From: Candidatus Altimarinota bacterium
GTDB lineage: Bacteria; Patescibacteriota; Gracilibacteria; UBA4473
Assembly: GCA_020631075.1 (NCBI GenBank)
Contig: JAHDHX010000006.1
Coordinates: forward strand, 1-42,242
Direction: 5' to 3'
Length of the DNA stretch: 42,242 nucleotides
The position numbers and the translations under genes are program-made. How positions within the stretch are numbered: position 1 is the stretch's first letter; every line of letters begins with the position of its first letter. Shown piece by piece: positions 7,798 through 30,416 of this stretch. The notes beneath the pieces were generated by a model that was not told where the DNA came from, made no database searches, and saw nothing but the letters and a program-made list of their open reading frames with translations.

Positions 7798-7881
7798 CCC
7801 CCCCTTTTCAACGTCTAAGCCACCTCTCCACAGCCTCTCTGCAGCTTCACAACCAAACACTCTACCACACAACCTGCTAGG

Positions 7882-7998
7882 CCTAGAACAAAACAACGGT
7901 GAAAAGGGGATCGAGAGTATCGTAAATTACCCTTTTGTTAGGTGTCTCACTATGTGAGGTTAAATAAGTATTTCGATACTGCAAATAATTATGGTGCA
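7882..7998. repeat. att-like repeat, left junction of element 1
   Basis: Copy 1 of a ~117-bp direct repeat. The last 66 bp (7933-7998) are almost identical to 22935-22999 and 30351-30416; the first half is more diverged. It contains two dyads: CTCAC-TAT-GTGAG (7946-7958) and AGTAT-TTCG-ATACT (7967-7980). It ends in TGGTGCA, the same bases that form CCA, discriminator and acceptor start at tRNA-Leu. This is interpreted as a hybrid attachment site. 7798-7881 holds nothing recognised. Confidence 0.75.
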
Positions 7999-8050
7999 GC
8001 AGACGGGTCTAGTACGCACAATGTCTATTGTGTTAACCAAGCATGAGACA

Positions 8051-8083
8051 AAAAGAGACACTATAAAAAAGAGTGTCTCTTTT
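8051..8083 (+). promoter_or_regulatory. Perfect 12-bp inverted repeat at the element 1 left end
   Basis: AAAAGAGACACT (8051-8062) and AGTGTCTCTTTT (8072-8083) are perfect complements around a 9-nt AT spacer containing TATAAA. It is either a bidirectional intrinsic terminator insulating the element from the chromosome or an operator over a -10 box for the downstream gene. The rest of 7999-8183 holds nothing else I recognise. Confidence 0.6.
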
Positions 8084-8183
8084 ACTAAACACTGATCAAA
8101 ATACTTGCTCAAAGGGTGGATTATCAGACGAAATTCTAACTCTTGTTTTGCGTAGAACGTGCGAGAGTGATAAAGTCAAAAAT

Positions 8184-9284
8184 ATGAAGAACAAAGAAAA
8201 AAAATGGCAAAAAAGAGGTGTTATGTCTGCAATGATAGAGAGGGGCGAAATTCCATCTATGAATAGTTTTGCTGAGGATATAAATTCTAATTTTTTGAAT
8301 TCTGTAGATGCTTATAAATCGTCCGATGCTAAATTTTCAGGATTAGATGTCTTTGATGGTAAGTTTGTTAAAGCAAATCTATCCGCTTGTGCAAACATAT
8401 CTGACTCATTTCAGAGTATAAGTTTTAAAAATTTAAGTGTTTTTGATGAATTAAGAGCAATGATTGACATACCTAAAATTCAAAATTGTCTTTCAGCAGC
8501 TACGCTTGATATTAGTCTTTCCGCAGGATTAGAAAATGTGGATTCTAGCTTGATTTCGAACTCTACAATTATGGATGCAGCACATGCAGCCATCAAATCA
8601 CCTTTAATAGAACGATTTAAGGAGCTCAATGATTTTACTACTGGAATACCGAAAAATATTTTCGAAGAAGATGACCGATACAAAGAACTGATTTCTACTC
8701 TAAGGGGAGTAATTCATAATATAGATTTTGCAAACCATGAGTACTGCGTAGATCAGATATCAATAGAGACCGATGAGAGTACTTCGAACAAGACTGAAAT
8801 CTATGTGGGAGAAGAGATAGTAACAGATCGAGATTCTTTTCCAGAGCCTGAGCTAAGTGAAGAAGAGGTTTTAAGACAGCAGATCAAATCTGCTCACGAA
8901 AAAGGGATTGATGTTGTAGGTATTGCACTGGTGACCAGTAAGCAACAGTACCAAGACTTAGTTATTGAAGTAAATATTCTCAACAATGAAATTCGTCACT
9001 GGTCACCTCGAAGAGCATCAACATTCGTAACTTTTCAGGACATGGGACTATTAAAACGCAATAATATAGACTTAAATAATCATGGAAAGATGCTTGTTTT
9101 TTTGGCGACACATCAATCAGTCTTTGAAAAAGAGCAATTGTCCTATCTGTTCCCGAGTAGAGATAGTGTAATAAATCGGTGGAATAAATTTATCGGGGAT
9201 TTTTTGGGGATTGACGAAAGAATGGTTGTTCATCACAAAACCTGTTGTTATAGGGTGAGATGTTTAATACAACAAATTAATTAA
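8184..9284 (+). CDS. Hypothetical protein, first gene of element 1
   Basis: 366 residues from the ATG at 8184; the frame is open upstream to 8073 but that start sits inside the hairpin. ATG 8223 and 8232 are alternatives. I do not recognise the family. The first ~190 residues are Ser/Asn-rich and low in charge. Residues ~205-245 are acidic (clusters such as EPELSEEEVLRQQI). The C-terminal ~115 residues are more globular, with basic and aromatic positions (RHWSPRRAST, INRWNKFIGDFLG) that could be a small DNA-binding domain, but no motif settles this. No membrane segment is seen. AT-rich codons differ from the chromosome. A terminator follows at 9342, so it is probably transcribed on its own. 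Confidence 0.6.
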   Translation: MKNKEKKWQKRGVMSAMIERGEIPSMNSFAEDINSNFLNSVDAYKSSDAKFSGLDVFDGKFVKANLSACANISDSFQSISFKNLSVFDELRAMIDIPKIQNCLSAATLDISLSAGLENVDSSLISNSTIMDAAHAAIKSPLIERFKELNDFTTGIPKNIFEEDDRYKELISTLRGVIHNIDFANHEYCVDQISIETDESTSNKTEIYVGEEIVTDRDSFPEPELSEEEVLRQQIKSAHEKGIDVVGIALVTSKQQYQDLVIEVNILNNEIRHWSPRRASTFVTFQDMGLLKRNNIDLNNHGKMLVFLATHQSVFEKEQLSYLFPSRDSVINRWNKFIGDFLGIDERMVVHHKTCCYRVRCLIQQIN

Positions 9285-9341
9285 TTTTGTGTTTAAAAAA
9301 ATCGCAAAACTCCTGCGTCACCAATCATAAAACTAAAAACA

Positions 9342-9376: not shown

Positions 9377-9420
9377 CTATTCGCAAGAGTGAGGAGTAAT
9401 CATTTACAGAGTGATTTCCA

Positions 9421-10776
9421 ATGAAGGATTATGGAGGCATGTTAAAAGATAACCTATCGGAAACGGCAACATCACCATTGATTAACCAGCGCAAAATCAG
9501 AGGACTCAAAATCCCGAAGTACTACGCGCGAAAAATAGATGTGGGCAAAAAAGAGCAACTTCTCAAAAGCATTGAGGTTCATGGATGGAGTCAGCCCATT
9601 GTGGTAAATATGCACCCCAAGCGGAAGAATATCATCATAGATGGGATAGCAAGGTATCGGCTGGCAAAAGAACAAAAGTGGAAAGAGGTCTTGGTGTATG
9701 AAGTTGCAATCAAAGGTGTTGAGACTGAAAAAGCCTTGGCACTTCGTCTAAACCAAATCAAAGGTGAGTGGGATTTCGACGTTCTCAAAACTTTCGACAT
9801 AGAATTGCTCCTCGATACAGGGTTTGATGAAACAGATCTCAGTCAGATTTGGAATGATGTTTTGGGCACAACAGACGATCAGGCAGACATAGCGTCGATG
9901 ATTGCAGAAGCAAAAAAGAATCCTCTTACAAAAGTGGGAGATCTTGTCACATTGGGAAAGCACAAACTACTTTGCGGTGATGCACAGAACGCTAAACATA
10001 TACAACGGCTGATCGGCGAAGCCAGCATCGACATGGTGTATTGCGACCCGCCGTACGATATTGGTCTCAACTACAACACAGGGGTGAGCGGCCAAAAACA
10101 GTATGGCGGAAAAGAACGGGATAGTAGATCGAATGAGGAATTTGAACAATTATTGTATTCTTCATTGAGAAATGCGTTGTCACATACCAAAAATGATGCG
10201 CATATTTTCTACTGGTGTGATCAAAAGCACATAGGGACTCTGCAACGTATGTATGCCGAACAGAAAGTGAGCAACAAACGAGTCTGCCTGTGGGTGAAAA
10301 ATAACTTCTCCCTTACACCCAAAGTGGCGTTTCATAAAGCCTATGAAGCGTGTGTGTACGGCACGATTGGTAATCCCTACCTGGCCGATGGGGTCAACCT
10401 GAATGAAATATTGAACAAAGAAATTGAGATGGGCAATCGGGGGCTAGAGGATATTATCGATACCTTCGATATATGGCTGTGCAAGCGCTTACCGAGTAAC
10501 GAATACCAACATCCCACCCAAAAGCCGATCTCTTTGCATGAAAAGCCCCTGAAGCGGTGTACAAAAATACACGATACCGTGCTGGATTTATTCGGTGGAT
10601 CGGGTTCAACCTTGCTGGCATGTGAACAAATGCAACGCCGAGCCTTTTTGATGGAACAAGATCCTGTGTTTTGTGATGTGATTGTTCGACGCTGGGAAGC
10701 CATGACCGGCGAAAAAGTTCATCGTTCATCTCCAGCTGATCCCACCATTTCTTTATTACGCCCCTCACAATCATGA
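9421..10776 (+). CDS. ParB-like domain / DNA (adenine-N6 or cytosine-N4) methyltransferase
   Basis: 451 residues. Residues ~25-105 form a ParB/sulfiredoxin-like N-terminal domain (IIIDGIARYRLAKEQKW matches the family's GxxRxxAxxxxG region). The methyltransferase follows with motif IV DPPY near residue 208 and motif I DLFGGSGST near 388; the order IV before I is that of beta-class amino-methyltransferases. Such ParB-MTase fusions are common in phages and integrative elements, usually as orphan methylases placed before the terminase genes, exactly as here. The stop overlaps the next start (ATGA at 10773-10776). No Shine-Dalgarno motif precedes the ATG. The methylated site cannot be read from sequence. 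Confidence 0.9.
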   Translation: MKDYGGMLKDNLSETATSPLINQRKIRGLKIPKYYARKIDVGKKEQLLKSIEVHGWSQPIVVNMHPKRKNIIIDGIARYRLAKEQKWKEVLVYEVAIKGVETEKALALRLNQIKGEWDFDVLKTFDIELLLDTGFDETDLSQIWNDVLGTTDDQADIASMIAEAKKNPLTKVGDLVTLGKHKLLCGDAQNAKHIQRLIGEASIDMVYCDPPYDIGLNYNTGVSGQKQYGGKERDSRSNEEFEQLLYSSLRNALSHTKNDAHIFYWCDQKHIGTLQRMYAEQKVSNKRVCLWVKNNFSLTPKVAFHKAYEACVYGTIGNPYLADGVNLNEILNKEIEMGNRGLEDIIDTFDIWLCKRLPSNEYQHPTQKPISLHEKPLKRCTKIHDTVLDLFGGSGSTLLACEQMQRRAFLMEQDPVFCDVIVRRWEAMTGEKVHRSSPADPTISLLRPSQS

Positions 10777-11642
10777 ACACTTCATCCCTTCCAAAACAAG
10801 CCAAGAAAAAATCTACTCCCAACCTGGGAGCAAAACATCAGAGACAGTTTGTTCTCAATGACATCAGACATGGAACAGTCATACAACTCGGCAGACATAG
10901 GCTGCTATGTGGCAGTGCGACAGACAAAGCTCAAGTAGAGTCCTTCCTTCACAATGAAACGATTGATCTCATCTTAACTGACCCACCATACGGAGTCGCC
11001 GTAGTGGAGAGTCAAAAGAGTCTGTCCAATGAAATATCTACATCTGACAAGAACACGAAGCGGACAAAAAGAATGCACAAATCGATAGTGAATGATCAAC
11101 ATCAAACCGCCGATGAATTTGCAGAATTCTCACGACAATGGCTAGCAGTCTGCGCGTCGTACTTAGCGGAGAAGAACAGTTATTACATTTTCAACGCCGA
11201 TCCCCATATTTGCAGTCTGAAGGCAGGGCTTATACAAGCGGGGTACAACTGGAAACAATTACTCATCTGGGCGAAGACGAGTGCGAGTTTGAGTCGGTTG
11301 GATTATCTCTCGCAACATGAACTTATTGCCTACGGCTGGAGAGGAAAGCACTGTTTCAGAAGAACGAATGACAAATCGATACTCATTCAGCCGAAAACCC
11401 AAAAGAACACCCTGCATCCTACCATGAAACCCGTGGGCTTACTCCGTCGACTGATTCTCAACAGCTCGCAGGTAAGTCAAACCATCTATGACCCATTTGG
11501 AGGCAGTGGCAGTACGCTCATTGCTTGTGAGCAAACCCAACGCAGGTGTTTGATGGTGGAACTTGATCCTGAGTATTGTCGGGTCATTTGTCAGCGGTGG
11601 GAGCAGCTCACGGGCGATACTGTTACTTATTCATCTCTGTAA
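10773..11642 (+). CDS. DNA (adenine-N6 or cytosine-N4) methyltransferase
   Basis: 289 residues. Motif IV is TDPPYGVAV at ~69-77; motif I is DPFGGSGSTLIACE at ~240-253, again in beta-class order. The RCLMVELDPEYC segment after motif I is typical of this class. A short N-terminal extension (residues ~15-45, RHGTVIQLGRHRLLCGSA) matches the segment just before the catalytic domain of the upstream enzyme, so the two are related but this one lacks the ParB-like domain. It overlaps the upstream gene by 4 bp and is followed 3 bp later by the small terminase gene. Probably a phage-type orphan methylase that protects element DNA or marks packaging substrate. Confidence 0.9.
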   Translation: MNTSSLPKQAKKKSTPNLGAKHQRQFVLNDIRHGTVIQLGRHRLLCGSATDKAQVESFLHNETIDLILTDPPYGVAVVESQKSLSNEISTSDKNTKRTKRMHKSIVNDQHQTADEFAEFSRQWLAVCASYLAEKNSYYIFNADPHICSLKAGLIQAGYNWKQLLIWAKTSASLSRLDYLSQHELIAYGWRGKHCFRRTNDKSILIQPKTQKNTLHPTMKPVGLLRRLILNSSQVSQTIYDPFGGSGSTLIACEQTQRRCLMVELDPEYCRVICQRWEQLTGDTVTYSSL

Positions 11643-11645
11643 ATC

Positions 11646-12134
11646 ATGCCGAAGAAAACAGCAGCAGTTCGAGAGAAAACGGCAAAAAAAAAGGAGTTAG
11701 TACTCGAACAACTCAAGAAAACACCGATTACACAGGTTGTTTGTGAAAAAGTGGGTATTGCCCGATGTACATTCTATCGCTGGTGCAACGAAGACACAGA
11801 ATTTAAGGCTGAAGTTGAAAGGGCGAGGTCCATCGGATATGGACTTATCAATGATCTGGCGGAATCCCAGCTTGTGAAGAAAATTCATGAGGGGAATATG
11901 ACAGCCATTCTTTTTTGGCTGAAAACACATCATGCAAAGTACAAGACAGGTCTAGAACTCAATGCCTATTTTGGTAAAAATTCAGAACTGAATAAGGAGC
12001 AGAAAACAGTCGTACGAAAAGCATTGAAACTGGCGCAGTCTGTTTTGGTGCGACCAAAGCCGAAGGGAAAGAAAGCAGAAACATCCCAAGAGCATTCAAA
12101 TGTAAAAAATGACATTTCCCCCCCCAACACGTGA
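11646..12134 (+). CDS. terS: Terminase small-subunit-like HTH protein
   Basis: 162 residues. A basic N-terminus rich in Lys precedes a helix-turn-helix at ~25-55 (KTPITQVVCEKVGIARCTFYRW), then W-C-N-E-D-T-E-F-K-A-E-V-E-R-A and a helical segment with GNMTAILFWLK. This HTH plus 'disperse-substrate, single long helix' layout matches small terminase subunits that recognise pac/cos DNA. Its position directly before and overlapping (4 bp) the large terminase gene supports the call. The C-terminus is a Lys-rich tail. It could also be a transcription regulator of similar fold, but the operon context favours packaging. Confidence 0.75.
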   Translation: MPKKTAAVREKTAKKKELVLEQLKKTPITQVVCEKVGIARCTFYRWCNEDTEFKAEVERARSIGYGLINDLAESQLVKKIHEGNMTAILFWLKTHHAKYKTGLELNAYFGKNSELNKEQKTVVRKALKLAQSVLVRPKPKGKKAETSQEHSNVKNDISPPNT

Positions 12135-13627
12135 TGAAAACACTCATAGAAAAAATCGTGTCTGATAGTGGAGTGAGAGAGGCTGTCACTCAGCAAAGTT
12201 TCCTTTGGTTCTTCCATATTTACTTCGCGCACTACGTCACCCACAGCACAGCATCGTTTCACAAAGAGATCTTCGATGTAGCGCAGCAAGCAGACATCCC
12301 ACTCTCGGTGATTCTTGCCTTCCGTGGCTCGGGCAAATCTTCCATCATCTCCATGGCGTATCCACTGTGGGCAATGCTGGGCAGCCAACAAAAGAAATTT
12401 GTGTTGCTGGTGGGGCGAACGCAGCAGCAAGCCTACCAACACCTGAAGAATATTAAGGCAGAGATCGAAACGAATGAAGTGCTGATGCATGATTATGGGC
12501 AAGTATTGCAAACCAATGAACTGGGACAGAAAGCGTTAACATTTCCAAAGATTAAAGCCCGTATTCAGGCCGTGAGTATGGAACAAAGTATCCGCGGGAT
12601 ACGTCATCTGGCAACACGCCCCGATCTTATCATCTGTGACGATATTGAAGACTTAGCCTCAGTGCGTTTCCGTGAACAACGAGACAAAACCTACAACTGG
12701 CTGACGGGTGAGATATTGCCTGCAGGTGACATCAATACCAAAGTGGTGATCATTGGGAACCTTCTTCACGATGACAGCTTAGTACGACGATTTGAAAAGA
12801 AAATTGAGCTGGGTGAGATGTCTGGGTTGGTGCGAAGGTATCCATTTCTGACTGACGTTGGCGAAGCGTTATGGGCAGGAAAGTTTCCTGACGATGAAAG
12901 TATCCAAGCGCATAAGCAAAAAGTGGGTAATCATATAGCGTGGGAGCGAGAGTATTTACTCAACCTCGTCCCTGATGATTACCAATTGGTGCAAGCGGAC
13001 TGGTTCAAATCTTATAGATTTTGGGATGACTATGGTGACCTGACTCGCAGTAATGACGCAACGTTTAAAATCTCGATCGGTGTTGATCTCGCTATCTCAC
13101 AAAGAGACACAGCAGATTACACCACCATTGTTCCCGTGCTGGCAGTGTGGCGTCCAGTGGATGGTTCGAGAGTAAAAAGGCGAGATTATTACATCGGGAG
13201 TGACCGAACACTGGATGTGTATGTACTCCCCCAGGTCATTAACAAGCGGATGACGTTTCTCGAGACCAAAGAAAAGATCAAGGAAATAGTCGACTGGTGC
13301 GAAAGATACTTAGACAAAACACCCACCGTGCAGGTGGAGTCAGTGGGGTACCAACAATCGATGATAGAAGTGCTGGAAGAGGACGGCATAAAGGTGGAAG
13401 GCATGAAGACCCATGGACAAGATAAGCGAGCCAGGCTGGCTTCGGTGAGTCATTTGATTGAAAACGGACAAGTCTGGCTGCCCAGTGACGGAAGCAATAT
13501 CGAAGAACTTATTGAGCAAGTGGTCGGACTAGGCAAAGAATCTCATGATGATCTGGCGGACGCACTGGTGTATGCCTTGAAAGGGATCGGCAAAAAGCCA
13601 GTTCGGTTTATGTATGCCATCATTTAG
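12131..13627 (+). CDS. terL: Phage terminase large subunit (ATPase-nuclease)
   Basis: 498 residues, full length for the family. Walker A is FRGSGKSS at ~65-72. Walker B plus catalytic acid is LIICDDIED at ~165-173. The RNase H-like nuclease starts at GVDLAISQRDTADYT (~316-330), with the final acidic motif DDLADAL at ~472-478. All expected catalytic Asp residues are present, so the enzyme looks intact. TerL pumps DNA into a prohead and cuts it. No portal, protease or capsid gene occurs downstream, which is unusual for a terminase. The gene begins inside the terS stop (4-bp overlap). Confidence 0.93.
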   Translation: MMKTLIEKIVSDSGVREAVTQQSFLWFFHIYFAHYVTHSTASFHKEIFDVAQQADIPLSVILAFRGSGKSSIISMAYPLWAMLGSQQKKFVLLVGRTQQQAYQHLKNIKAEIETNEVLMHDYGQVLQTNELGQKALTFPKIKARIQAVSMEQSIRGIRHLATRPDLIICDDIEDLASVRFREQRDKTYNWLTGEILPAGDINTKVVIIGNLLHDDSLVRRFEKKIELGEMSGLVRRYPFLTDVGEALWAGKFPDDESIQAHKQKVGNHIAWEREYLLNLVPDDYQLVQADWFKSYRFWDDYGDLTRSNDATFKISIGVDLAISQRDTADYTTIVPVLAVWRPVDGSRVKRRDYYIGSDRTLDVYVLPQVINKRMTFLETKEKIKEIVDWCERYLDKTPTVQVESVGYQQSMIEVLEEDGIKVEGMKTHGQDKRARLASVSHLIENGQVWLPSDGSNIEELIEQVVGLGKESHDDLADALVYALKGIGKKPVRFMYAII

Positions 13628-13648
13628 GTTAATTCATCTCGGTTTTCC

Positions 13649-13706
13649 CCTCGACTTACAGCCCCCGCGCAGGCTTTGTATGTGTGTGCTTCATTACTAA
13701 TTCATC
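13649..13706 (+). repeat. Direct repeat leader, copy A
   Basis: 58 bp between terL and the 103-residue gene. The first 39 bp are identical to 14043-14081, the rest similar. It contains GCC and GGC arms around CCCGCGCA, extended by TACA/TGTA with a bulge, so a small hairpin is possible. Both copies sit just before a small gene. Confidence 0.8.
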
Positions 13707-13718: not shown

Positions 13719-14030
13719 ATGACAATGATCACAGAAATATGCCCCAGTGAACGGAAGAAAATGGGCAAAAAATACATTCAACAGCACATGCCCAAAGGGA
13801 TGCCTGCATGGGTCTGCAATGCCCTCATGAGTATTTCGCAGAAAGAGACATTCCCATTGCCAATGAACGAGACAGAATTCAAACGCTGGAAGTGGAAAAT
13901 GGAGACACTAGCTGAAGTGCGAGCAGAGAATCTGAAAGACTTACTTACAGGCGAAGACGACTATTCTGGACACATTCAAATGCAGCGGTACTGGCAGGCG
14001 GTGCGAAGTGCGCTGACAGAGATGAAATAA
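13719..14030 (+). CDS. Small hypothetical protein downstream of terL
   Basis: 103 residues, basic and helical, with several Trp (AWVCNALM, FKRWKWKMETLAE, YWQAVRSAL). No family recognised and no membrane segment. It follows copy A of the duplicated leader. Its place between terminase and defence genes suggests it belongs to the packaging part of the element, perhaps a structural or regulatory accessory. Confidence 0.6.
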   Translation: MTMITEICPSERKKMGKKYIQQHMPKGMPAWVCNALMSISQKETFPLPMNETEFKRWKWKMETLAEVRAENLKDLLTGEDDYSGHIQMQRYWQAVRSALTEMK

Positions 14031-14042
14031 AAACTGCTTTGG

Positions 14043-14101
14043 CCTCGACTTACAGCCCCCGCGCAGGCTTTGTATGTGTGTACTTCATAACCAAATTCAT
14101 C
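14043..14101 (+). repeat. Direct repeat leader, copy B
   Basis: 59 bp. The identical 39-bp part is 14043-14081; the remainder differs by a few bases. It ends exactly at the ATG (14102) of the next small gene. Confidence 0.8.
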
Positions 14102-14395
14102 ATGACAACGACCAACATGAATAACGTTCCCGTCGACCAAGATGAAGTGCGAGAACGAGCTATCATCGCTATGAAAAAACTCTCCCCGCATCTGCACGCC
14201 ATGTGGCGAAGCGGATCAGAAAGACAACTGCTCAAGCTGTGGAAACGCATACAAATGTGGAAATCTATGAGCTATAGTTCGGTGATTCGCTACCGTGGGG
14301 AAAACCACGAGCTCGCCACGAAGTACCGCAGAGAAGTAACAAAGTTCAAATATATGGCACAGTTAGTAGAGATGGAGATGCAAGAAGAAACTTAA
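14102..14395 (+). CDS. Small hypothetical protein
   Basis: 97 residues from the ATG at 14102; the frame is open back to 14039 but that part is the repeat leader. Highly charged and helical (EVRERAIIAMKKLSPHL, KLWKRIQMWKSM, KYRREVTKFKYMAQLVEME). No family recognised. It shares leader sequence, but no clear protein similarity, with the gene at 13719. Confidence 0.55.
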   Translation: MTTTNMNNVPVDQDEVRERAIIAMKKLSPHLHAMWRSGSERQLLKLWKRIQMWKSMSYSSVIRYRGENHELATKYRREVTKFKYMAQLVEMEMQEET

Positions 14396-14460: not shown

Positions 14461-17166
14461 ATGAGCATGAGTATTCACAAAGTTGAGCAACGTCTGAAAA
14501 CTATTGTTGAGGATTTTGATAAGCAGGAATTCATTTATGATTTATTGCTCGCTTATAAGGTTCCAAAGTCTACGGTAACACGACTAAAACAAGGCAAAGG
14601 AAATGTGAAACTCAATCTGGCAAAACGAGAAGATCGAATAATTCTGAAGAAGAAACTTTTTTTTCAAGAAATAGAAAGTGGAGACTTGCATGATGTGATT
14701 GATGATTTGCAAAAGGACAAACTTACCTCAGCCCACAAACCACGATTTTTGGTTGTTACAGATCATAAAACCCTCTTGGCAGTTGATCTAAAAACAAGTG
14801 ACACTTTGGATATTCCTATTGAAAAGCTCCCAGCGAATGCCGAGTTTTTCCTACCATGGATGGGCATGGAGAAAGCCTCAGCGTCTAATGAGAACATGGC
14901 AGATGTGAGAGCGTCTGAGCGGATGGCAAAACTGTATGATGAGCTGTGTAATGTAAACGAGGAATGGCTGAAAACACACCTGCACGACTTGAATGTGTTT
15001 TTGTCTCGGTTGCTTTTTTGCTTCTTTGCCGAAGACACCGGTATTTTTCCGGATGAAGTGTTTACTAAATCTATCAAATCACACACGCAAGATGATGGAA
15101 GTGATTTTAATGCGTACCTCGAAAAGCTCTTTGAGATGCTGGATACGCCAGAGGATAATACTGACCGAGATCAGCTGCCGGAGTATCTGAAAAAGTTTCC
15201 GTATGTGAATGGGAAGCTCTTTACCGATAAGCATGAGACACCGCAATTCAATGCGAGGGCAAGACGAATGGTGATAGAGTGCGGAAAGTTGAATTGGAAA
15301 GAGATTAATCCGGATATATTCGGGTCTATGCTGCAGGCGGTGGCACGAATCCGCCAAGGGAATGACGAAGACATAGACGGTAATGATGCGACCAAGCACT
15401 ACACGTCTGTGCCCAACATTATGAAAGTGATCAATCCGCTGTTTCTCGATGAGCTGAATGAGCAATATGAAAAAAGCCAAGATAGCGTAAAAGGACTTGA
15501 AAAACTGCTGATTCGGATGAGTAAGATTCGGATATTTGATCCGGCGTGTGGCAGCGGTAATTTCTTGATTATTGCGTATAAGCGACTACGAGAGCTGGAG
15601 ATAGAAATCGTGAAACGATTACAAGAGCTAGAAAAACATCGTTCGCTCAGGCTGTTTAGTGAGATACGCCTCGATCAGTTCTTTGGGATTGAGATAGATG
15701 ATTTTGCGGTGGAGACGGCCCGTCTGTCTCTGTGGCTGGCAGAGCACCAGATGAACATGGCTCAGCACAAAGCCTTTGGGCAGGCACAGCCCACCATACC
15801 GCTGAAGAAGGCTGGGAACATAGTGCATGCCAACGCCACACGAATAGAATGGGCAGAAGTGTGCCCCAAAAGCCAAGACCATGAGACGTATTTGCTGGGG
15901 AATCCACCATATAAGGGAGCAAGAAAGCAGTCTATAAAAATGAAATCTGATATAGAATTCTGCCTTGGGCACATTAAGGGGTCTGGAAATATCGATTATA
16001 TTGCACCATGGTTCATTAAGGGAGCTGAGTATATTCACCTTCAAGATTCAAAGTGTGCTTTTGTTTCTACTAATTCAATCTGTCAGGGAGTTCAAGTTTC
16101 ATTAGTTTGGTCTGAAGTCTTAAAATTAAATTTAGAAATCTGTTTTGCTCATCAATCATTTAGTTGGTCAAATAATGCGAAAGGTAATGCAGGGGTTACA
16201 GTTGTAATTATTGGTTTAGGAAATACTTCAAATGCTAAAAAGATTATTTTTAATGGAGAAAGAAAGGCTAATGTACAAAAAATATCTCCGTATTTAGTTG
16301 CGGGATCAGATTTATTTGTGACCGACCAATCCAAACCAATAAGTTTACTGCCAATTATGGAGTCAGGAAGTATGAATAATGGGAAGTCATTATTACTCAC
16401 AAAAAGTGAGAAAGATTTAATTCAGGACAATAGAGTTGATAGGTTTATAAAACCAATCATTGGGGGAGATGAATTTTTAAATGGAAAACAGAGGTATTGT
16501 TTTTGGATTTATGATTCAGACCTTGAAGCAGCTGAAAGCATACCTTTTTTAAAGGGAAAAATTGATAATATAAAAAAAGAGAGATTGGATAGTAAGCGAA
16601 AAGCAACACAAAAACTAGCAAATACCCCTCATAAGTTTGCAGAAATTCGACATAAAAATTCATCATATGTATTTATTCCCTTTGTATCATCAGAAAAGCG
16701 TAATTACATTGTAGCTGGATTCTTTCAGGAAGATACAATTCCAATTGCACCGCATCAAACTATCTACGATGCAGAGCCATGGGTATTTGGTGTGGTGTCA
16801 TCACGTATGCACATGACATGGGTTCGAGCCGTTGGTGGACGCATGAAAACAGATATCCGCTACTCATCTACGCTTTGCTACAACACATTTCCCTTCCCAC
16901 CCCTTACCGCACGGCAAAAAGAAGAAATAGAAGATCGGGTGTTTGATGTGTTAGACGAACGAGAAAAATATCCAGAAAAAACCATGGCTCAGCTATATGA
17001 CCCCGACAAAATGCCGGAGGGACTGCTGACAGCTCATCAGAACCTAGATGCCGCCGTGGAGCGAGTGTATCGTTCTCGTCCCTTTGAAAGTGACGAGGAA
17101 CGACTAGAATATCTGTTTGCTCTGTATGAGAAGATGACGGCTACAATTAAATCAGAAACAAAATGA
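14461..17166 (+). CDS. MmeI-like class I SAM-dependent DNA methyltransferase (type IIG-like)
   Basis: 901 residues. The N-terminal ~180 residues match the MmeI-type N-terminal region (EFIYDLLLAYKVPKSTVTRL, then KPRFLVVTDHKTLLAVD and an FFLPWMG segment); a PD-(D/E)xK nuclease site is not evident to me. Helical spacer to ~350. Gamma-class methyltransferase: motif I DPACGSGNF at 360-368 and motif IV NPPY at 481-484. Target-recognition region ~510-790, then a C-terminal FPFPPLT segment and helices. Adenine-N6 methylation is expected. First gene of a four-gene defence-type cluster; its stop overlaps the next start (ATGA). DNA for ~520-770 is visibly more AT-rich than either side, as if the recognition domain had been exchanged. 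The ATG at 14467 is an alternative start. Confidence 0.85.
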   Translation: MSMSIHKVEQRLKTIVEDFDKQEFIYDLLLAYKVPKSTVTRLKQGKGNVKLNLAKREDRIILKKKLFFQEIESGDLHDVIDDLQKDKLTSAHKPRFLVVTDHKTLLAVDLKTSDTLDIPIEKLPANAEFFLPWMGMEKASASNENMADVRASERMAKLYDELCNVNEEWLKTHLHDLNVFLSRLLFCFFAEDTGIFPDEVFTKSIKSHTQDDGSDFNAYLEKLFEMLDTPEDNTDRDQLPEYLKKFPYVNGKLFTDKHETPQFNARARRMVIECGKLNWKEINPDIFGSMLQAVARIRQGNDEDIDGNDATKHYTSVPNIMKVINPLFLDELNEQYEKSQDSVKGLEKLLIRMSKIRIFDPACGSGNFLIIAYKRLRELEIEIVKRLQELEKHRSLRLFSEIRLDQFFGIEIDDFAVETARLSLWLAEHQMNMAQHKAFGQAQPTIPLKKAGNIVHANATRIEWAEVCPKSQDHETYLLGNPPYKGARKQSIKMKSDIEFCLGHIKGSGNIDYIAPWFIKGAEYIHLQDSKCAFVSTNSICQGVQVSLVWSEVLKLNLEICFAHQSFSWSNNAKGNAGVTVVIIGLGNTSNAKKIIFNGERKANVQKISPYLVAGSDLFVTDQSKPISLLPIMESGSMNNGKSLLLTKSEKDLIQDNRVDRFIKPIIGGDEFLNGKQRYCFWIYDSDLEAAESIPFLKGKIDNIKKERLDSKRKATQKLANTPHKFAEIRHKNSSYVFIPFVSSEKRNYIVAGFFQEDTIPIAPHQTIYDAEPWVFGVVSSRMHMTWVRAVGGRMKTDIRYSSTLCYNTFPFPPLTARQKEEIEDRVFDVLDEREKYPEKTMAQLYDPDKMPEGLLTAHQNLDAAVERVYRSRPFESDEERLEYLFALYEKMTATIKSETK

Positions 17167-18293
17167 ATTTAAAAAAATTAAAAGACACAGCTGAAACAAC
17201 GATCTCAAACATAAGAGAAAATGGGCAATATCCTAATGAGAATGATCTGTTTGATTACAAAGAAAAATTAAATATTGGAAAAGAAGAAGATAGTATTGAA
17301 ATATTTATGATAAATTTTGCAAAAGATATTATTTCTTTTTCAAACGCTAATGGAGGAATACTTTTATTGGGAATAAAAGAACAGAATGGAATTAAAAGTG
17401 AAGTTGGCTTAAATAAAAAAGACATTGAAATCTTAAGCTCAGTAGATACTGAACAAATCAACGCTAAGTTTAAAAAAATACTTCAATCCAATGTGGCAAT
17501 AGACATTCAGCCTTTTAATATAGGATCTAAAAATTGCTTCTATATCTTAATTGAAAAAAATACTAGTACTTTAATTCCTGTATCAGATCAAAAAAAATAT
17601 AAGTTAAATAAGGGAGAAATTTGGTATAGAGTTTCAAGTAATAATCTACATGCAAACCAAAATACATCTAATATGGATGAATTCGTAAGATCTAAATCCA
17701 ATGAAAAAAGTAAAGAATTTATGGAAATATGGTCAAAGATATTACCAGAAATGTTCGATATAAATCCAAAAGAAATACTTTTAATTAATCCAATTAAAAA
17801 TCAGGTATATGGATTTAATGCAAAAAATAATTCTTTGTCAGGAAGTAATATAGAAATAGACAAAAGCGAAACAGGAGTATTTAATATAATACTAAATGCT
17901 ATCCATGCAGGAGAAATTGGGAAGATAACAACAAACAAAGGTAAGCCAATTTATAAGATTGTTGGCGAAATAAAAGAGGCCGCACCACACATTATTTTAA
18001 CGAGTTTAGAATCAGAAGCGAAGGCATTATCACATTATAATTTTACTAATGTGCAGCTAAAACAAGTAATCTATTATTTAGGCTGGGTTTCCAATGCTAA
18101 ATTTAAAGTAAGAAATCCTGAGACTACTGAAATAAATGGAAATGAATTTATTTGGATTGAAACAACTGATCACTCAAAACAAACAACAAAAGTTTTCTTT
18201 TCTCCTAAAGCTATAGGTGAGGTCGTAAATATAATAAATAACGTTTCTCTTCATGGAGATATCTTTAATAAAAAACTTAAACCTAAAAATTAA
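17163..18293 (+). CDS. AlbA_2/Schlafen-like domain protein
   Basis: 376 residues. Residues ~28-165 carry the AlbA_2 (divergent AAA_4, Schlafen-related) pattern: D-Y-K-E-K-L near 31, KDIISFSNANGGILLLGI at ~55-72, and a WYRVSSNN strand near 157. The other ~200 residues are unassigned. Proteins of this fold bind nucleic acid and some Schlafen relatives cleave tRNA; here only an accessory nucleic-acid role in the defence cluster can be inferred. It starts inside the methyltransferase stop codon, so it is co-transcribed. The gene is far more AT-rich than its neighbours, which suggests separate acquisition. Confidence 0.75.
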   Translation: MNLKKLKDTAETTISNIRENGQYPNENDLFDYKEKLNIGKEEDSIEIFMINFAKDIISFSNANGGILLLGIKEQNGIKSEVGLNKKDIEILSSVDTEQINAKFKKILQSNVAIDIQPFNIGSKNCFYILIEKNTSTLIPVSDQKKYKLNKGEIWYRVSSNNLHANQNTSNMDEFVRSKSNEKSKEFMEIWSKILPEMFDINPKEILLINPIKNQVYGFNAKNNSLSGSNIEIDKSETGVFNIILNAIHAGEIGKITTNKGKPIYKIVGEIKEAAPHIILTSLESEAKALSHYNFTNVQLKQVIYYLGWVSNAKFKVRNPETTEINGNEFIWIETTDHSKQTTKVFFSPKAIGEVVNIINNVSLHGDIFNKKLKPKN

Positions 18294-18347: not shown

Positions 18348-20267
18348 ATGCCAGATTTAGTCCGCAGAACATACGCCCAAACTGGGAAAAGCAAATCTAC
18401 CAACGAACTGGGGATGCGAGAGATGCAAGAACGTGCCTACTCCAAACGTGATGCTCAGTATTTGCTGATCAAAGCTCCGCCGGCTTCCGGTAAAAGCCGA
18501 GCGTTGATGTTTATTGCCTTGGATAAAATCCATAACCAAGGCGTAAAAAAAGCCATTGTGGCTGTACCTGAAAAATCCATTGGCGGTTCATTTGGTCACA
18601 CCGAACTCATGAAATATGGGTTCTTTGCTGACTGGAATCCAGATGACCGGTGGAACCTGTGCACTCCGGGTGGAGAAAAAAGCAAAGTGCAGGCGTTCCT
18701 CAAATTTATGGAAAGTGAAGAAAAGATCCTTATCTGTACGCATGCGACTTTGCGATTTGCCTTTGAGCATATTGATGAAAGCAAATTCAACGATGTACTA
18801 CTGGCAATAGATGAATTTCACCATGTGTCAGCAGATAAGGAGTCAAACATCCTTGGAAGCCTGCTTCATAGCGTTATGACAAAATCAGACGCACATGTGG
18901 TAGCAATGACAGGGTCATACTTCCGTGGGGATGGTGTACCGGTGTTGCTTCCTGAGGATGAAGCTAAGTTTGATCGAGTGACCTATAACTACTACGAACA
19001 GCTCAATGGGTATGAGTACCTCAAATCTCTTGGGATTGGATACCATTTCTATACCGGTCGCTACACAGGTGCAATCCCTGAGGTGCTAGACACCGATAAA
19101 AAAACTATCTTGCACATCCCCAATGTAAACGCTGGAGAGTCTACAAAAGACAAGTACAACGAAGTTGGGCATATTCTTGATAGTATCGGGGTAGTAGAAA
19201 AACAAGACAGTCAGACAGGGGTGATTTACTTAAAGCGTCACACAGATGGAAAAACAATCAAAGTGGCCGATCTAGTGGATGACATGAAGAGCCGTGATCA
19301 TATCATGGAATATCTGCGTAACATTGAAGGTCCAGAAGATATTGATTTAATTATCGCCTTGGGCATGGCGAAAGAGGGGTTTGATTGGCCGTATTGTGAA
19401 CACGCTCTCACGGTGGGCTACCGAGGCTCACTCACAGAGGTTATTCAGATCATCGGTCGTTGTACTCGTGATAGTGACAACAAAGATCACGCTCAATTCA
19501 CTAACCTCATCGCCCAGCCAGATGCCATGGATGATGATGTCGTGGTTGCGGTAAACAACATGCTCAAGGCTATTACTTGTTCACTTCTGATGGAGCAAGT
19601 CATGGCTCCGGTGTTCAAATTTCGAACAAAGCAATCTGATGAGGATAAATCTGAAGCTGGTACGCTAAAAATCAGAGGATTCAAAGAACCAAAAACAGAA
19701 CGAGTGGAGCAAATCCTCGAATCAGATCTTAATGATATTAAGGCAACGATCCTGCAAGACAGTAAAATGCTTAAGGCGCTTCCAGGCAATATTGATCCGG
19801 AGGTCATAAACAAGGTTATGATCCCGAAAATCATTCAGGAAAAATATCCGGAGTTGAGTAATGATGAGATTGAGCAGGTGCGTCAGCATGTAGTGGTGGA
19901 TAGTGTGGTTAAAAATGGTGAAATCAAAACTACCGGAGACAAGAAATTTATCCGGATGGCGGGCAAGTTTGTGAATATTGATGACCTCAATATTGACCTA
20001 ATTGATCGAATTAATCCATTCCAAGAAGCCTTTGAGGTACTATCAAAGTCAGTTACATCACAGACGCTACGAGTCATCCAAGAATCTATTGAAATGACTC
20101 GGATTCAAATGACAGATGAGGAGGCTTTGCTTCTTTGGCCCAAAATCAAAGACTTTGTAAAAACAAAAGGCAAGCACCCAAGTGTATCTTCACCAGATCC
20201 ATTAGAGAAACGAATGGCAGAGGCTGTTATTTACCTCAAACGATTACGACGAGAAGAAAAGATTTAG
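18348..20267 (+). CDS. SF2 DEAD/DEAH-type helicase of defence cluster
   Basis: 639 residues. Helicase motifs are clear: I APPASGKS (43-50), II DEFHH (155-159), III MTGSY (187-191), VI QIIGRCTR (367-374). The two RecA-like domains end near residue 400. The C-terminal ~240 residues are helical and charged, of unknown function. SF2 translocases in restriction-type systems move along DNA and feed a nuclease. The next gene encodes a GIY-YIG nuclease 14 bp downstream, and a methyltransferase lies upstream, which supports a restriction or other anti-phage role. Confidence 0.88.
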   Translation: MPDLVRRTYAQTGKSKSTNELGMREMQERAYSKRDAQYLLIKAPPASGKSRALMFIALDKIHNQGVKKAIVAVPEKSIGGSFGHTELMKYGFFADWNPDDRWNLCTPGGEKSKVQAFLKFMESEEKILICTHATLRFAFEHIDESKFNDVLLAIDEFHHVSADKESNILGSLLHSVMTKSDAHVVAMTGSYFRGDGVPVLLPEDEAKFDRVTYNYYEQLNGYEYLKSLGIGYHFYTGRYTGAIPEVLDTDKKTILHIPNVNAGESTKDKYNEVGHILDSIGVVEKQDSQTGVIYLKRHTDGKTIKVADLVDDMKSRDHIMEYLRNIEGPEDIDLIIALGMAKEGFDWPYCEHALTVGYRGSLTEVIQIIGRCTRDSDNKDHAQFTNLIAQPDAMDDDVVVAVNNMLKAITCSLLMEQVMAPVFKFRTKQSDEDKSEAGTLKIRGFKEPKTERVEQILESDLNDIKATILQDSKMLKALPGNIDPEVINKVMIPKIIQEKYPELSNDEIEQVRQHVVVDSVVKNGEIKTTGDKKFIRMAGKFVNIDDLNIDLIDRINPFQEAFEVLSKSVTSQTLRVIQESIEMTRIQMTDEEALLLWPKIKDFVKTKGKHPSVSSPDPLEKRMAEAVIYLKRLRREEKI

Positions 20268-20281: not shown

Positions 20282-21472
20282 ATGAAAAAAGAAGAATTAT
20301 TGCAATTGATTTCAGAAGATGAATTTGGACTTCTAAATGTTACGTCCAAGAGCAGTGCTATGTCTGAAGACGATCGATTGATTGCTTCTTTTGAGGAGAT
20401 TACTGCTTTTGTAGAAAATACGGGACATGAACCAAAACCCAGCAAGCAAATTAAGGAAAGACGTCTTTATTCACGGCTCAAAGGAATTCGTGGAAACTTA
20501 AAAAATGCAGGCGTATTAATTGAGAGCGGATATGACAAATTCAACCTCCTTGAAGAACAAGCAAAGGAGTTACAAAGCGTCAAAGATATTATGGAAGATG
20601 ATGATCTGGGGATACTTGATGACCCAACAGGTATTTTTAGTATCAAACAAGAAGCCCTTATCCGACATCGAAAATCGGCTGAGTTTGTTGCCCAGAGAAA
20701 GGCATGCAAGGATTTCGATGAATTTGAGCCTCTATTTCTGCAATGTCACCAAGATCTGAAGAATGGCCGTAGACAACTCGAAAGAAATTTTAGAAGTGAT
20801 CAAAAAATACAACAAGGGCGTTTTTGCCTGATTAATGGCATGCTTCTTTATCTTGCAAAGGTCGTTCGAGATAGAAAAGATGTAAAAGGAACGCAAGATG
20901 GTAGGCTTCGAGTGATTTTTGAAAATGGAACGGAATCCAATATGCTTTTAAGAAGTCTGTCTAGAAGAATACGAGCGGAAAATGGGAAAATGATAACAGA
21001 TCCTAACGGGGATTTAGAGACTGAACTTTCAAGAAAAGCAGGATTAATAACAGATAAAGACCAACAAGCAGGGTACATCTATGTTTTGAAATCCTTGAGT
21101 CAAAATGAACAAATAGCGAGCTTAAAAGACTTATATAAAATTGGTTTCACAACTGGATCCGTAGAGTCAAGAATTTCAAATGCAGAAAAAAAACCAACGT
21201 ACCTCATGGCGCCTGTAGCTATTGTGGCAACCTTCAAGTGCTTTAACTTCAATCCTCAAAACTTAGAACAAAAACTTCATGCATTTTTTGGTAAATCTTG
21301 TTTAAATATTGATGTATTTGATAAAAATGGAAAGCGACACTCTCCACGAGAATGGTTTGTTGCACCTTATGAAATAATAAAACAAGTTATAAGTTTGGTA
21401 GTCGAGAACAAAATCAATGATTTTCGATTCAATAAAAAATTAAATCTAATTGAAAGACTAGTCCTCGACTAA
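20282..21472 (+). CDS. T5orf172-type GIY-YIG nuclease
   Basis: 396 residues. The C-terminal ~130 residues are a T5orf172/GIY-YIG domain: GYIYVLKS at ~264, LYKIGFTTGSVESRI at ~283-298, NLEQKLHAFF near 325 and REWF near 355 supplying the late Glu. GIY-YIG enzymes cut DNA through a single metal ion. The N-terminal ~250 residues are helical and charged with no family I recognise; they may contact the helicase or DNA. This is the last gene of the cluster, 55 bp before the recombinase gene. Confidence 0.82.
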   Translation: MKKEELLQLISEDEFGLLNVTSKSSAMSEDDRLIASFEEITAFVENTGHEPKPSKQIKERRLYSRLKGIRGNLKNAGVLIESGYDKFNLLEEQAKELQSVKDIMEDDDLGILDDPTGIFSIKQEALIRHRKSAEFVAQRKACKDFDEFEPLFLQCHQDLKNGRRQLERNFRSDQKIQQGRFCLINGMLLYLAKVVRDRKDVKGTQDGRLRVIFENGTESNMLLRSLSRRIRAENGKMITDPNGDLETELSRKAGLITDKDQQAGYIYVLKSLSQNEQIASLKDLYKIGFTTGSVESRISNAEKKPTYLMAPVAIVATFKCFNFNPQNLEQKLHAFFGKSCLNIDVFDKNGKRHSPREWFVAPYEIIKQVISLVVENKINDFRFNKKLNLIERLVLD

Positions 21473-21526: not shown

Positions 21527-22822
21527 ATGGAAACTTCAAGAAAAAGAGCCGAAGCACCGCTTCGGTATTGTATATACGCCCGCAAGTCGTCTGAAAGTGA
21601 CGAAAAGCAAGCCATGAGCATTGAGGCACAAATACGAGAGATGCAACAAATTGCGGAGCGAGAAAATTTAAATGTCGTTGACGTACGCAATGAAGCAAAA
21701 TCTGCGAAATCTGTTGGCGTTCGCCCTGTCTATAATCAGCTCTTACAAGACATTGAAGATGAAGATATACAGGGCATTATAACGTGGGCACCTGATAGAT
21801 TGAGCAGGAATGCCGGTGATTTAGGCAGGCTCGTCGATCTCATGGACGCAGGCAAACTGCATGAAATACGAACACATGGACAGAATTTTAGGAATAACCC
21901 CAACGAGAAATTCTTACTGATGATACTCTGCAGCCAAGCCAAGCTTGAGAATGATAACAGAGGAAAAAATATTCGACGAGGCATGAGAGCTGCTTGTGAG
22001 AGTGGGAGAAAACCAGGTATGCCAGCATTAGGGTACGCCATTAAAAGAGAAGGATCACGGTATCGTGGTGCTTGTGAAATTGTTCACGACGAAGAGAGAA
22101 TCCATCACATCAAAAAATTGTTTCACCTAATACTCGACAAAGATATGAGCGGACGCGAAGCTTGGCACCAAGTAACCAGTGAAGGTCTAAGAACACGCAA
22201 AGGAAAAGTTCTCACCCGCAGTATGGTGTATCGCATTCTCAATGACACATTCTACTATGGAGAGTTCGAATACCCGAAACAATCTGGAGTTTGGTACAAA
22301 GGCAATCATAAACCAATAATCACCAAAAAACAGTTTTTAGAAGTCAGAAAACGACTCGCAACCTACGAGAAAAGTAAATGGGGTGCCAAAACATTCTATT
22401 ACTCAAAGTTACTTAAATGCGGCAGGTGCGGCTCTGGCATCATCGGTGAAGAACACATAAGAGAACGCAAAAGTGGTGTGAAAAAATATGTGTATTACAA
22501 ATGTTCACGCTATGGAGGAAAGCTACAATGTAACGAACTCTACATTAGAGAGGAAGACCTGATTGATCGAATATCTGAGTATATTGATGCCTATCGTGAT
22601 ATCGACATAAAAGTAAATAGCAAAATCATTCAGCAAATTCAGATGCTCAATGAGATTAATAAAATAGCAGGAATTAGAACTGTTCTAGAGCCAATAGATT
22701 ATATCAAGCAGGTCCTTGTAAATGGAAGCGGCAGACAAAAAGCGCAGTTACTCAAATGCATTGATAAGAAGTTCTTTCTTCAAAATGGTGAAATCTTCCT
22801 AGGGAAGAACGAAGAGAAATAA
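21527..22822 (+). CDS. Large serine recombinase (integrase) of element 1
   Basis: 431 residues, intact. The resolvase/invertase catalytic domain starts with YARKSS, catalytic Ser21, and has the DRLSRN motif near 88-93. A 'recombinase' domain follows at ~165-270 (LGYAI, TRSMVYRILNDTFYYGEF). Zinc ribbon: C-G-R-C at ~298-301, then paired Cys at ~329 and ~337. The C-terminal coiled segment is short. Such enzymes integrate and excise elements between short attP and attB sites. The gene is last in the element, 61 bp from the att-like repeat, a typical integrase position. 29524-30238 is a decayed near-copy. Confidence 0.95.
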   Translation: METSRKRAEAPLRYCIYARKSSESDEKQAMSIEAQIREMQQIAERENLNVVDVRNEAKSAKSVGVRPVYNQLLQDIEDEDIQGIITWAPDRLSRNAGDLGRLVDLMDAGKLHEIRTHGQNFRNNPNEKFLLMILCSQAKLENDNRGKNIRRGMRAACESGRKPGMPALGYAIKREGSRYRGACEIVHDEERIHHIKKLFHLILDKDMSGREAWHQVTSEGLRTRKGKVLTRSMVYRILNDTFYYGEFEYPKQSGVWYKGNHKPIITKKQFLEVRKRLATYEKSKWGAKTFYYSKLLKCGRCGSGIIGEEHIRERKSGVKKYVYYKCSRYGGKLQCNELYIREEDLIDRISEYIDAYRDIDIKVNSKIIQQIQMLNEINKIAGIRTVLEPIDYIKQVLVNGSGRQKAQLLKCIDKKFFLQNGEIFLGKNEEK

Positions 22823-22883
22823 TACGAACATTTCGCAGTTCTTCGCAAATAATCCGAATGCACCTGAATGTGAGGGTTTAGGG

Positions 22884-22999
22884 TCTAGAACAAAACTCAG
22901 GTGAAAAGGGGCTTCAGCACATCAAAAAACACCGTTTTGTTAGGTGTCTCACTATGTGAGGTTAAATAAGTATTTCAATACTACAAATAACTATGGTGC
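22884..22999. repeat. att-like repeat, junction of elements 1 and 2
   Basis: Copy 2 of the repeat. The distal half is nearly identical to copy 3 (30300-30416). It keeps the dyads CTCAC-TAT-GTGAG and AGTAT-TTCA-ATACT. It ends TGGTGC and is then followed by CTAATTAGGG..., unlike the other two copies. The remaining 23000-23131 carries an 8-T run (~23033-23040) but no gene. Confidence 0.8.
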
Positions 23000-23131
23000 C
23001 TAATTAGGGACGCGAACCTATTAGGAGGGTCTGTTTTTTTTACGTTTCACGTTCTGTGATTTATTGCATGCCTTTTAGGAGTTAAGAATTTAAAATCTGT
23101 TGCACTTCTTTTTAGAATCTAGGGCCTTTTG

Positions 23132-29416: not shown

Positions 29417-29491
29417 AATGAACCTCAAGAGCTGGGGATGTGTTTGAGTGGTTATCTCCCTCGCCTGAGGCGGGTCATTTGTGACACGAAT

Positions 29492-29513
29492 GTGGGTAAC
29501 ACTATTTACTCAC
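29492..29513 (+). promoter_or_regulatory. Dyad upstream of the recombinase pseudogene
   Basis: The same GTGGGTAA-n5-TTTACTCAC dyad as at 21495-21516, here 10 bp before the ATG of the broken recombinase. Homology with element 1 starts about 20 bp further left, at GGGTCAT. Confidence 0.5.
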
Positions 29514-29523
29514 CAGTTTCAAG

Positions 29524-30238
29524 ATGAAAACACCAAAAACACGTGCTGAAGCACCGCTTCGGTATTGTATCTATGCGCGCAAGTCATCTGAAAGTGACGA
29601 AAAGCAAGCCATGAGCATTGAGGCATAAATACGCGAGATGCAAGCTATTGCAGAGAGAGAAAATTTAAATGTCGTTGACGTACGGAATGAAGCAAAATCT
29701 GCGAAATCTGTTGGCGTTCACCCTGTTTATAATCAGATCTTCCAAGACATCGAAGATGAAGATATACAGGGCATTATAAAGTGGGCCCTCGATAGATTGA
29801 GCAGGAATGCTGGTGATTTAGGCAGGCTCGTCGATGTCATGGACGCAAGCAAACTGCATGAAATACAAACACATAAGAGAACGCAAAAGTGGTGTAAAAA
29901 AATATGTGTATTACAAATATTCACGCTATGGAGGAAAGCTGCAATGTAACGAACTCTACATTAGAGAGGAAGACCTGATTGATCGAATATCTGAGTATAT
30001 TGATGCCTATCGTGATATCGACATAAAAGTAAATAGCAAAATCATTCAGCAAATTCAGATGCTCAATGAGATTAATAAAATAGCAGGAATTAGAACTGTT
30101 CTAGAGCCAATAGATTATATCAAGCAGGTCCTTGTAAATGGAAGCGGCAGACAAAAAGCGCAGTTACTCAAATGCATTGATAAGAAGTTCTTTCTTCAAA
30201 ATGGTGAAATCTTCCTAGGGAAGAACGAAGAGAAATAA
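29524..30238 (+). pseudogene. Serine recombinase pseudogene of element 2
   Basis: Near-copy of 21527-22822 with at least three lesions. Codon 35 is TAA (29626-29628), where the intact gene has CAA. A 581-bp internal deletion joins positions equal to 21871 and 22452 of the intact gene at a shared AACACAT and shifts the frame, removing the rest of the catalytic domain, the recombinase domain and half of the zinc ribbon. A zinc-ribbon Cys has become Tyr (YYKCSR to YYKYSR). The DNA after the deletion is almost identical to the intact copy, so decay is recent or the copies were homogenised. Confidence 0.93.
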
Positions 30239-30299
30239 TACGAACATTTCGCAGTTCTTCGCAAATAATCCGAATGCACCTGAATGTGAGGGTTTAGGG

Positions 30300-30416
30300 T
30301 CTAGAACAAAACTCAGGTGAAAAGGGGCTTCAGCACATCAAAAAATACCGTTTTGTTAGGTGTCTCAATATGTGAGGTTAAATAAGTATATCGATACTGC
30401 AAATAATTATGGTGCA
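30300..30416. repeat. att-like repeat, right junction at tRNA-Leu
   Basis: Copy 3 of the repeat. Its last bases overlap the tRNA-Leu 3' end (30410-30416). The distal part matches copy 2; the last ~25 bp match copy 1. One arm of the first dyad is altered (CTCAA-TAT-GTGAG). The DNA between the pseudogene and this repeat (30239-30299) repeats 22823-22883. Confidence 0.8.

Follow-up and report, generated by a model that had tools for sequence, protein, structure and literature searches.

Patescibacteria harbor a family of mobile elements that carry a DNA-packaging motor and no virion genes. One such element lies in a 42,242-nt stretch of DNA (hereafter the window, meaning the whole stretch analyzed) from Candidatus Altimarinota bacterium (Gracilibacteria; UBA4473; assembly GCA_020631075.1, contig JAHDHX010000006.1), the host genome of which is 1.46 Mb with a completeness of 95.9%. 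The family is real, conserved and mobile, is unlike the satellite families with which it was compared, and has a variable cargo that is often of the defense type. Integration of the elements as units, their mobility and the conservation of the terminase pair are strongly supported. They probably represent a single ancient lineage spread through a large part of the Patescibacteria (about a tenth of the genomes sampled have a detectable TerL of this kind), reduced to the motor, which either rides in phage capsids by means of its own terminase or uses the terminase for a task wholly unrelated to viruses, for instance DNA transfer or defense. Of these possibilities, we incline to an old family of satellites with the core methyltransferase–TerS (terminase small subunit)–TerL (terminase large subunit)–large serine recombinase, which supply the packaging motor and use the capsids of helper phages.

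The packaging cassette of the window consists of four plus-strand open reading frames (ORFs), the neighbors of which overlap or are separated by 3 nt (Table 1). The N-terminus of methyltransferase 1 (MT1) resembles ParB, with a ParB_N match (9e-6) slightly under the Pfam cut-off. TerS is recognized in Pfam by HTH_Tnp_1_2 (7e-7) and, below the cut-off, by Sf6_terminase (9e-4). In TerL the Walker A (FRGSGKS) and Walker B (LIICDDIED) sequences, the GN motif and the acidic residues of the nuclease are all present, and the protein aligns over its full length with terminases of viral contigs; a profile of 21 element TerLs matches solved terminases weakly and in the ATPase part only (4bij, 3.8e-6; 8dgc, 1.8e-5). 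The ORFs, their PHROG and Pfam matches and the motif check bear out the original prediction, made from the letters of the window, of two methyltransferases, TerS and a motif-intact TerL in one tight operon. It had also held that defense genes, and no portal, protease or capsid gene, follow TerL. Indeed, none of these three was found downstream of TerL among the PHROG and Pfam matches of the window ORFs, and a IIG enzyme and a Schlafen/AlbA protein stand there instead.

The borders, the recombinase, the attachment (att)-like repeats and the breadth of the family lie beyond that prediction. The island is A+T-rich with a reversed GC skew, and a 141-nt repeat occurs three times, at 7880, 22882 and 30298, the last copy overlapping the 3' end of a tRNA-Leu gene. 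The repeats delimit two units in tandem. Unit A (15,002 bp, 7880–22881) comprises the cassette, the cargo and a recombinase gene that is intact, and in unit B (7,416 bp) a 2074-aa ORF is accompanied by a broken version of the unit A recombinase. The tRNA-Leu gene adjoins the same exonuclease gene in 7 of the 9 family relatives examined, with the relative orientation of the window in 5 of 7 judged from coordinates, or fewer if two like-strand cases are counted strictly. The similarity of the relatives to the window ends at or near the 3' end of tRNA-Leu, which marks the insertion point. In the search for an empty site the right neighbor gene was usable, whereas the search with the left neighbor was unsuccessful because that gene is multi-copy. 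Integration of the element is strongly supported.

The same gene set recurs far beyond the window. MT1, methyltransferase 2 (MT2), TerS and TerL are common to five loci in three genomes (the window, L020, L021, L022 and L024), and in L021 the recombinase directly follows TerL. A class-wide search with the TerL profile gave matches in 30 of 353 genomes, from which 28 stretches were retrieved. When the element loci were clustered, TerS/TerL, the methylases and the recombinase recurred in 25 to 28 loci, the next cluster in 8 and the remainder in at most 6. Genome contigs gave no match to the window TerL by itself, and the 21-row TerL alignment gave 287 matches, of which 80 were kept; nearly all of these bear the titles of Patescibacteria groups or of unnamed bacteria, besides one bin each of Omnitrophota and Pacearchaeota. 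In a sample of the phylum, TerL relatives occur in 38 of 379 genomes and HK97 capsids in 13.

A first joint count of 94 non-redundant loci, which left out L044, L045 (ordinary phage), L047, L051, L052 and four pieces of host contig C7, found a methylase in 85, TerS in 85, a same-strand recombinase after TerL in 67 and structural genes in none. The final count covers 108 TerL loci, with known phages and some others, L048 among them, set aside beforehand. The methyltransferase is present in 97, TerS in 99, a downstream same-strand recombinase of one family in 77, and all three in 69. Structural genes occur in a single locus, L227, an ordinary prophage whose genome (G493) also holds the elements L225 and L226. 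The structural models were built from the tailed phage locus L004; they do match phage loci of the viral set, and are tuned to L004-like phages, so that distant capsids could be missed. No capsid gene was found by these models in any element of the family; capsid genes in other members had been named as a refutation of the original prediction. Separately, L048 (G081) and L049 (G096) have many TGA codons in the TerL frame (10 and 18, respectively) and therefore appear to use an alternative genetic code, which is known for some Gracilibacteria.

The elements were compared with phages in trees of TerL. A first tree of 98 rows, comprising 47 of 102 element rows, 14 of 52 undetermined rows and all 37 phage rows, was not clean and needed six changes for elements and four for phages. 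Twelve rows were dropped, namely 11 TerLs assignable to neither element nor phage (two of them, L062 and L127, taken from genome contigs) and that of L050, which is degenerate. In the resulting tree of 86 TerLs, one branch separates 49 element rows from 37 phage rows (Shimodaira–Hasegawa-like approximate likelihood ratio test, 91). Selection was measured between relatives, the window TerL itself being without a close relative for the test. By the Nei–Gojobori method the ratio of nonsynonymous to synonymous substitution rates (dN/dS) of TerL is 0.024 for each of the tandem copies of L033/L035, 0.041 for L035/L029, and no listed pair with a value exceeds 0.104 (range 0.02–0.10); the TerS pair of L033/L035 (dN/dS 0.61 at dS 0.02) is uninformative. 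Relaxed selection on terL in relatives, which had been named as a refutation of the original prediction, was not found between the relatives compared. Across 68 loci, TerL distances correlate with those of TerS (r 0.71), the recombinase (0.47) and MT1 (0.29), and none of 999 permutations reached any of these values.

These data bear on the second suggestion of the original prediction, a decayed prophage, or, for the family, several phages that lost their virion genes and kept packaging genes as relics. The TerL and methylase are phage-like, some TerLs are broken and unit B of the window is a derelict unit, as decay would leave them. However, the element TerLs form one clade once the 12 rows are dropped, dN/dS is low, the gene order is constant, the recombinase belongs to one family, of which 35 phage loci have no member, the module and recombinase recur in distant candidate phyla, and the unit has moved recently as a whole. 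Decay is therefore very unlikely, and because of the single TerL clade and the purifying selection we take the family to be an old mobile-element lineage.

The recent movement is seen in L085 (Falkowbacteria) and L088 (Uhrbacteria), which have 5,117 bp in common at 92.6% identity, spanning methylase, TerS, TerL and recombinase, between flanks that are unrelated except for a 74-nt piece; no repeats were found at the ends of this unit. Wrong binning could mimic a move across phyla, and the different flanks show movement regardless. L033 and L035, from different genera, have 7.9 kb in common at 92%, so that transfer of elements between lineages is supported. The tRNA closest to the recombinase on its downstream side has the opposite orientation in 30 of 31 loci (26 of 27 in an earlier set; p 4e-7 against one half), compared with 160 of 274 ORFs located downstream, and a tRNA lies within 300 nt of the recombinase end in 4 of 71 loci, where about 0.75 would be expected by our own arithmetic from tRNA density. 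Long direct repeats were considered as a general feature of the family and rejected: among 27 loci the window, L074 and L101 alone surpassed every one of the 26 controls, one control did at least as well as L086 and two at least as well as L055, and three loci had no match. Serine integrases share only a short att core, and long direct repeats are not generally expected of them.

The smallest units consist of methyltransferase, TerS, TerL and recombinase in about 4.5–5.1 kb, the shortest span from methylase to recombinase being 4,517 bp. In 30 of the 67 elements with MT1 and a recombinase, no ORF of at least 60 aa lies between TerL and recombinase. Elsewhere this interval holds cargo (100 ORFs) rich in ResIII/DEAD helicases, N6 methylases and MmeI, together with type I restriction parts and superinfection-exclusion-like proteins; these tallies take the best 25 of 103 PHROG and the best 25 of 96 Pfam families, and a lone stray head gene is compatible with them. 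No relaxase, one of the marks of an integrative mobilizable or conjugative element, was named for the window ORFs or among the best 25 cargo families, oriT not having been searched. The TerL motifs are kept in most members of the family. Seven loci (L026, L028, L029, L031, L032, L033 and L035) carry a tandem pair of full-length TerLs, both with motifs and both under purifying selection, on two branches of the tree.

A terminase that no longer packages could also be maintained in such a core. It might act inside the cell as a motor that cuts and translocates DNA, either preparing that of the element for movement or replication or, with the methylase as a self-marker, severing or jamming the DNA of invading phages in defense. 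A methylase beside a nuclease is reminiscent of restriction-modification, the cargo is rich in defense genes, capsid genes are absent from the elements and few in carrier genomes, and some members retain an ATPase-like TerL alone. Against this stand the ATPase and nuclease motifs and TerS, conserved under purifying selection as a full packaging set, and the fact that phages have the module too, adjoining TerL and portal (13 of 35 phage loci contain MT1). We consider a non-packaging role possible and rather unlikely.

The elements might, finally, encode an unusual shell of their own that the models missed, for example in the ORF upstream of MT1 or in the cargo. A same-strand ORF does occupy this fixed place in 68 of 92 loci, mostly without an assigned family, and the one in the window (403 aa) gave no usable fold, its AlphaFold2 model being too poor for use (predicted local distance difference test score 33.5) and no fold search having been made with it. 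The upstream ORFs, however, belong to several unrelated families, one of which has, in our reading, a C-terminal cysteine pattern like that of a zinc finger; the other 24 of the 92 loci have no such ORF, and no portal candidate was seen although a terminase needs one. A shell of their own is accordingly the most improbable of the explanations considered.

For the satellite reading, which the original prediction had listed first and which is the better of its two, the unit bounded by repeats at tRNA-Leu, its own recombinase, the recurrent capsid-less module, the occurrence of elements and an ordinary prophage side by side in the genome G493 and a defense-type cargo as in satellites all count; packaging by a helper is the part of it that goes beyond these observations. 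The element would be inserted by the recombinase, in many cases at the 3' end of a tRNA gene, and perhaps later be excised by it. Upon infection by a tailed phage, or upon induction of one, the element methylase would mark the element DNA, a role for which the pac site of phage P1 offers a precedent. TerS–TerL would then cut this DNA and drive it, probably as a concatemer, into the procapsids of the phage, and the particle could carry the element into a new cell.

Several results weigh against the satellite reading. The host genome has no match to the HK97 capsid (PF05065) or to the portal (PF04860), and so no resident helper by these models; the Pfam TerL_ATPase (PF03354) is silent there as well and is uninformative, the window TerL fitting Terminase_6C instead. 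HK97 capsids apart from the element TerL are only slightly commoner in carriers (3 of 35) than in other genomes (7 of 341; p 0.056), where the 35 carriers are the 38 minus G226, G504 and G558, in each of which a capsid gene stands no more than about 9 kb from the sole TerL, and where part of the carrier loci were opened, so that a few could belong to phages that have another kind of capsid. No terminal repeats were found on 27 short contigs, neither packaged nor excised copies of an element were observed, and the elements yielded no pac site and no gene for replication. Element sizes vary widely, and the clean split of the TerL tree depends on dropping the 12 rows. Broken terL genes in relatives, which had been proposed as a refutation, are not the rule, yet they do occur: the nuclease domain or its residues are lost in L020 (10052–10930), L024 (6731–7582) and L050 (9645–11099), and TerL is split or partial in L037 and L046. 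Methylases and TerS are intact beside the nuclease-less TerLs of L020, L024 and L050, which are perhaps an ATPase-only variant.

By the way it probably works, the family is classed with the phage satellites. Phage-inducible chromosomal islands (PICIs), including those of Staphylococcus aureus (SaPIs), are likewise integrated, small and capsid-less, and redirect packaging (PMC10690885). They differ in having at most TerS, which some SaPIs carry (PMC10690885), in using the TerL of the helper and in belonging to other phyla; PICIs are recognized by TerS without TerL, whereas in the window TerL adjoins TerS, with methylases beside the pair. Capsid-forming PICIs do have both TerS and TerL, together with capsid genes (PMC10690885), but their own capsid, protease, portal and connectors have no counterpart found in the window or the family loci. 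P4-like satellites and the minimal PICMIs (phage-inducible chromosomal minimalist islands) are also small, integrative and capsid-less (PMC10803314); P4 differs in using the terminase of its helper (PMC10690885), and no terS was recognized in the PICMI (PMC10803314). Tycheposons and virion-encapsidated integrative mobile elements (VEIMEs) are integrative with proposed travel in virions (PMC10803314, PMC11389934), and are marine. Another small marine element is described without a terminase (PMC12324425), and a Pseudomonas satellite without structural genes (PMC4936722). Terminase genes have been taken to suggest mobilization by phages, and the satellite families described in the excerpt of PMC11389934 include none of the present kind. 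For Patescibacteria, prophages and unspecified islands are reported (PMC13059738, PMC6509639, PMC12455944, PMC7739484), and a Saccharibacteria phage without an identifiable capsid, mentioned in PMC6509639 with reference to Dudek 2017, is a lead. No description of a capsid-less TerS–TerL element was found in the literature searched, the scope of which took in few subscription papers.

The window element has an integrase and borders, as satellites do, and no complete virion gene set; the portal and major capsid genes that follow TerL in a tailed prophage are missing. Tailed phages of the L004/L148 type in IMG/VR resemble the element in TerL, which is about 40% identical to that of L004, and in MT1, which lies upstream in 13 of 35 phage loci, but differ in the portal, protease and capsid genes after TerL and in lacking the recombinase family of the elements. 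They are the likely source of the module.

If this account holds, a terminase pair needs only a methylase and a recombinase to persist through deep time as a stable mobile element, and having a packaging motor but no package would define a class of mobile DNA. Such elements would also outnumber detectable HK97-capsid prophages in these ultra-small bacteria (TerL relatives in 38 and HK97 capsids in 13 of the 379 genomes), and their genes offer a marker for seeking missing helper phages and carriers of defense genes in Patescibacteria. They also offer a natural test of whether a satellite TerL can dock on a foreign portal. A terminase in a Patescibacteria genome should not be equated with a prophage, as contigs of these elements are filed as viruses in IMG/VR.

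Table 1. Features of the window (positions count from its first nucleotide).
Feature	Coordinates	Strand	Evidence
Left att-like 141-nt repeat, unit A	7880..8020		Repeat D3; 0/26 control loci as good
403-aa ORF before cassette; position conserved, family variable	8073..9284	+	No Pfam or useful PHROG match
DNA methyltransferase 1, ParB-like N-terminus	9421..10776	+	N6_N4_Mtase 9.9e-25; phrog_498 1.9e-86
DNA methyltransferase 2	10773..11642	+	N6_N4_Mtase 5e-29
TerS	11646..12134	+	phrog_309 1.3e-8 and other TerS families
TerL, ATPase and nuclease motifs intact	12131..13627	+	phrog_38 2.2e-71; Terminase_6C 8e-10
57-nt leader-like repeat, copy 1	13644..13700	+	Repeat D4; kept in C7 elements
Small ORF, no assigned function	13719..14030	+	Related DNA elsewhere in host genome
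57-nt leader-like repeat, copy 2	14038..14094	+	Repeat comparison
Small ORF	14102..14395	+	87% identical to one in C7 element; alternative start 14039
MmeI-type IIG restriction-methylation enzyme (cargo)	14461..17166	+	MmeI_Mtase 4.8e-102; PADLOC REase_MTase_IIG 6.7e-297
Schlafen/AlbA_2 protein (cargo)	17163..18293	+	PF04326 3.5e-13
DEAD/ResIII helicase (cargo)	18348..20267	+	Pfam
T5orf172/MUG113 protein (cargo)	20282..21472	+	Domain match
Large serine recombinase, unit A	21527..22822	+	Resolvase 4.8e-22; Recombinase 1.4e-12; zinc ribbon 1.4e-9
Middle att-like repeat, between units A and B	22882..23022		Repeat comparison
2074-aa ORF, most of unit B	23192..29416	+	LPD25 0.0058 alone, below cut-off
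Broken recombinase, unit B	29481..30238	+	Start and end kept, middle missing, one stop
Right att-like repeat, overlaps tRNA-Leu 3' end	30298..30438		Repeat comparison
tRNA-Leu (tag), integration target	30410..30494	-	ARAGORN; synteny with exonuclease gene, 7/9 relatives

In unit B, the 2074-aa ORF takes up nearly the whole unit, which has the recombinase end and the att repeat in common with unit A. The remnants of its recombinase are fragments 87% and 98% identical to the intact unit A copy (repeats D1 and D2). No relatives of the 403-aa ORF of unit A were found among the upstream ORFs of other loci. To the left of the island, a cysteine-rich protein of 549 aa (6148–7797) belongs to a protein family that, within the bacterial family of the host, reaches 22 matches in one genome (G005).

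A 57-nt repeat precedes each of the two small ORFs after TerL and also the related ORFs in both C7 elements, with a constant core of the type TTTGTATGTGTGT; it could be a regulatory or a packaging signal. A further copy of the DNA around the first small ORF, 86% identical, lies at 4595–4980 of contig C49 of the host genome, and no terminase or recombinase gene was found near it in the 20 kb examined. Host contig C7 holds two more terminase or terminase-like loci, each with serine recombinases. At one end a methylase–methylase–TerS operon is joined by a short, ATPase-only TerL, and at the other lies a TerL-like fragment. Among the cargo of the first of these loci are proteins of the type III restriction, GmrSD and UmuC types.

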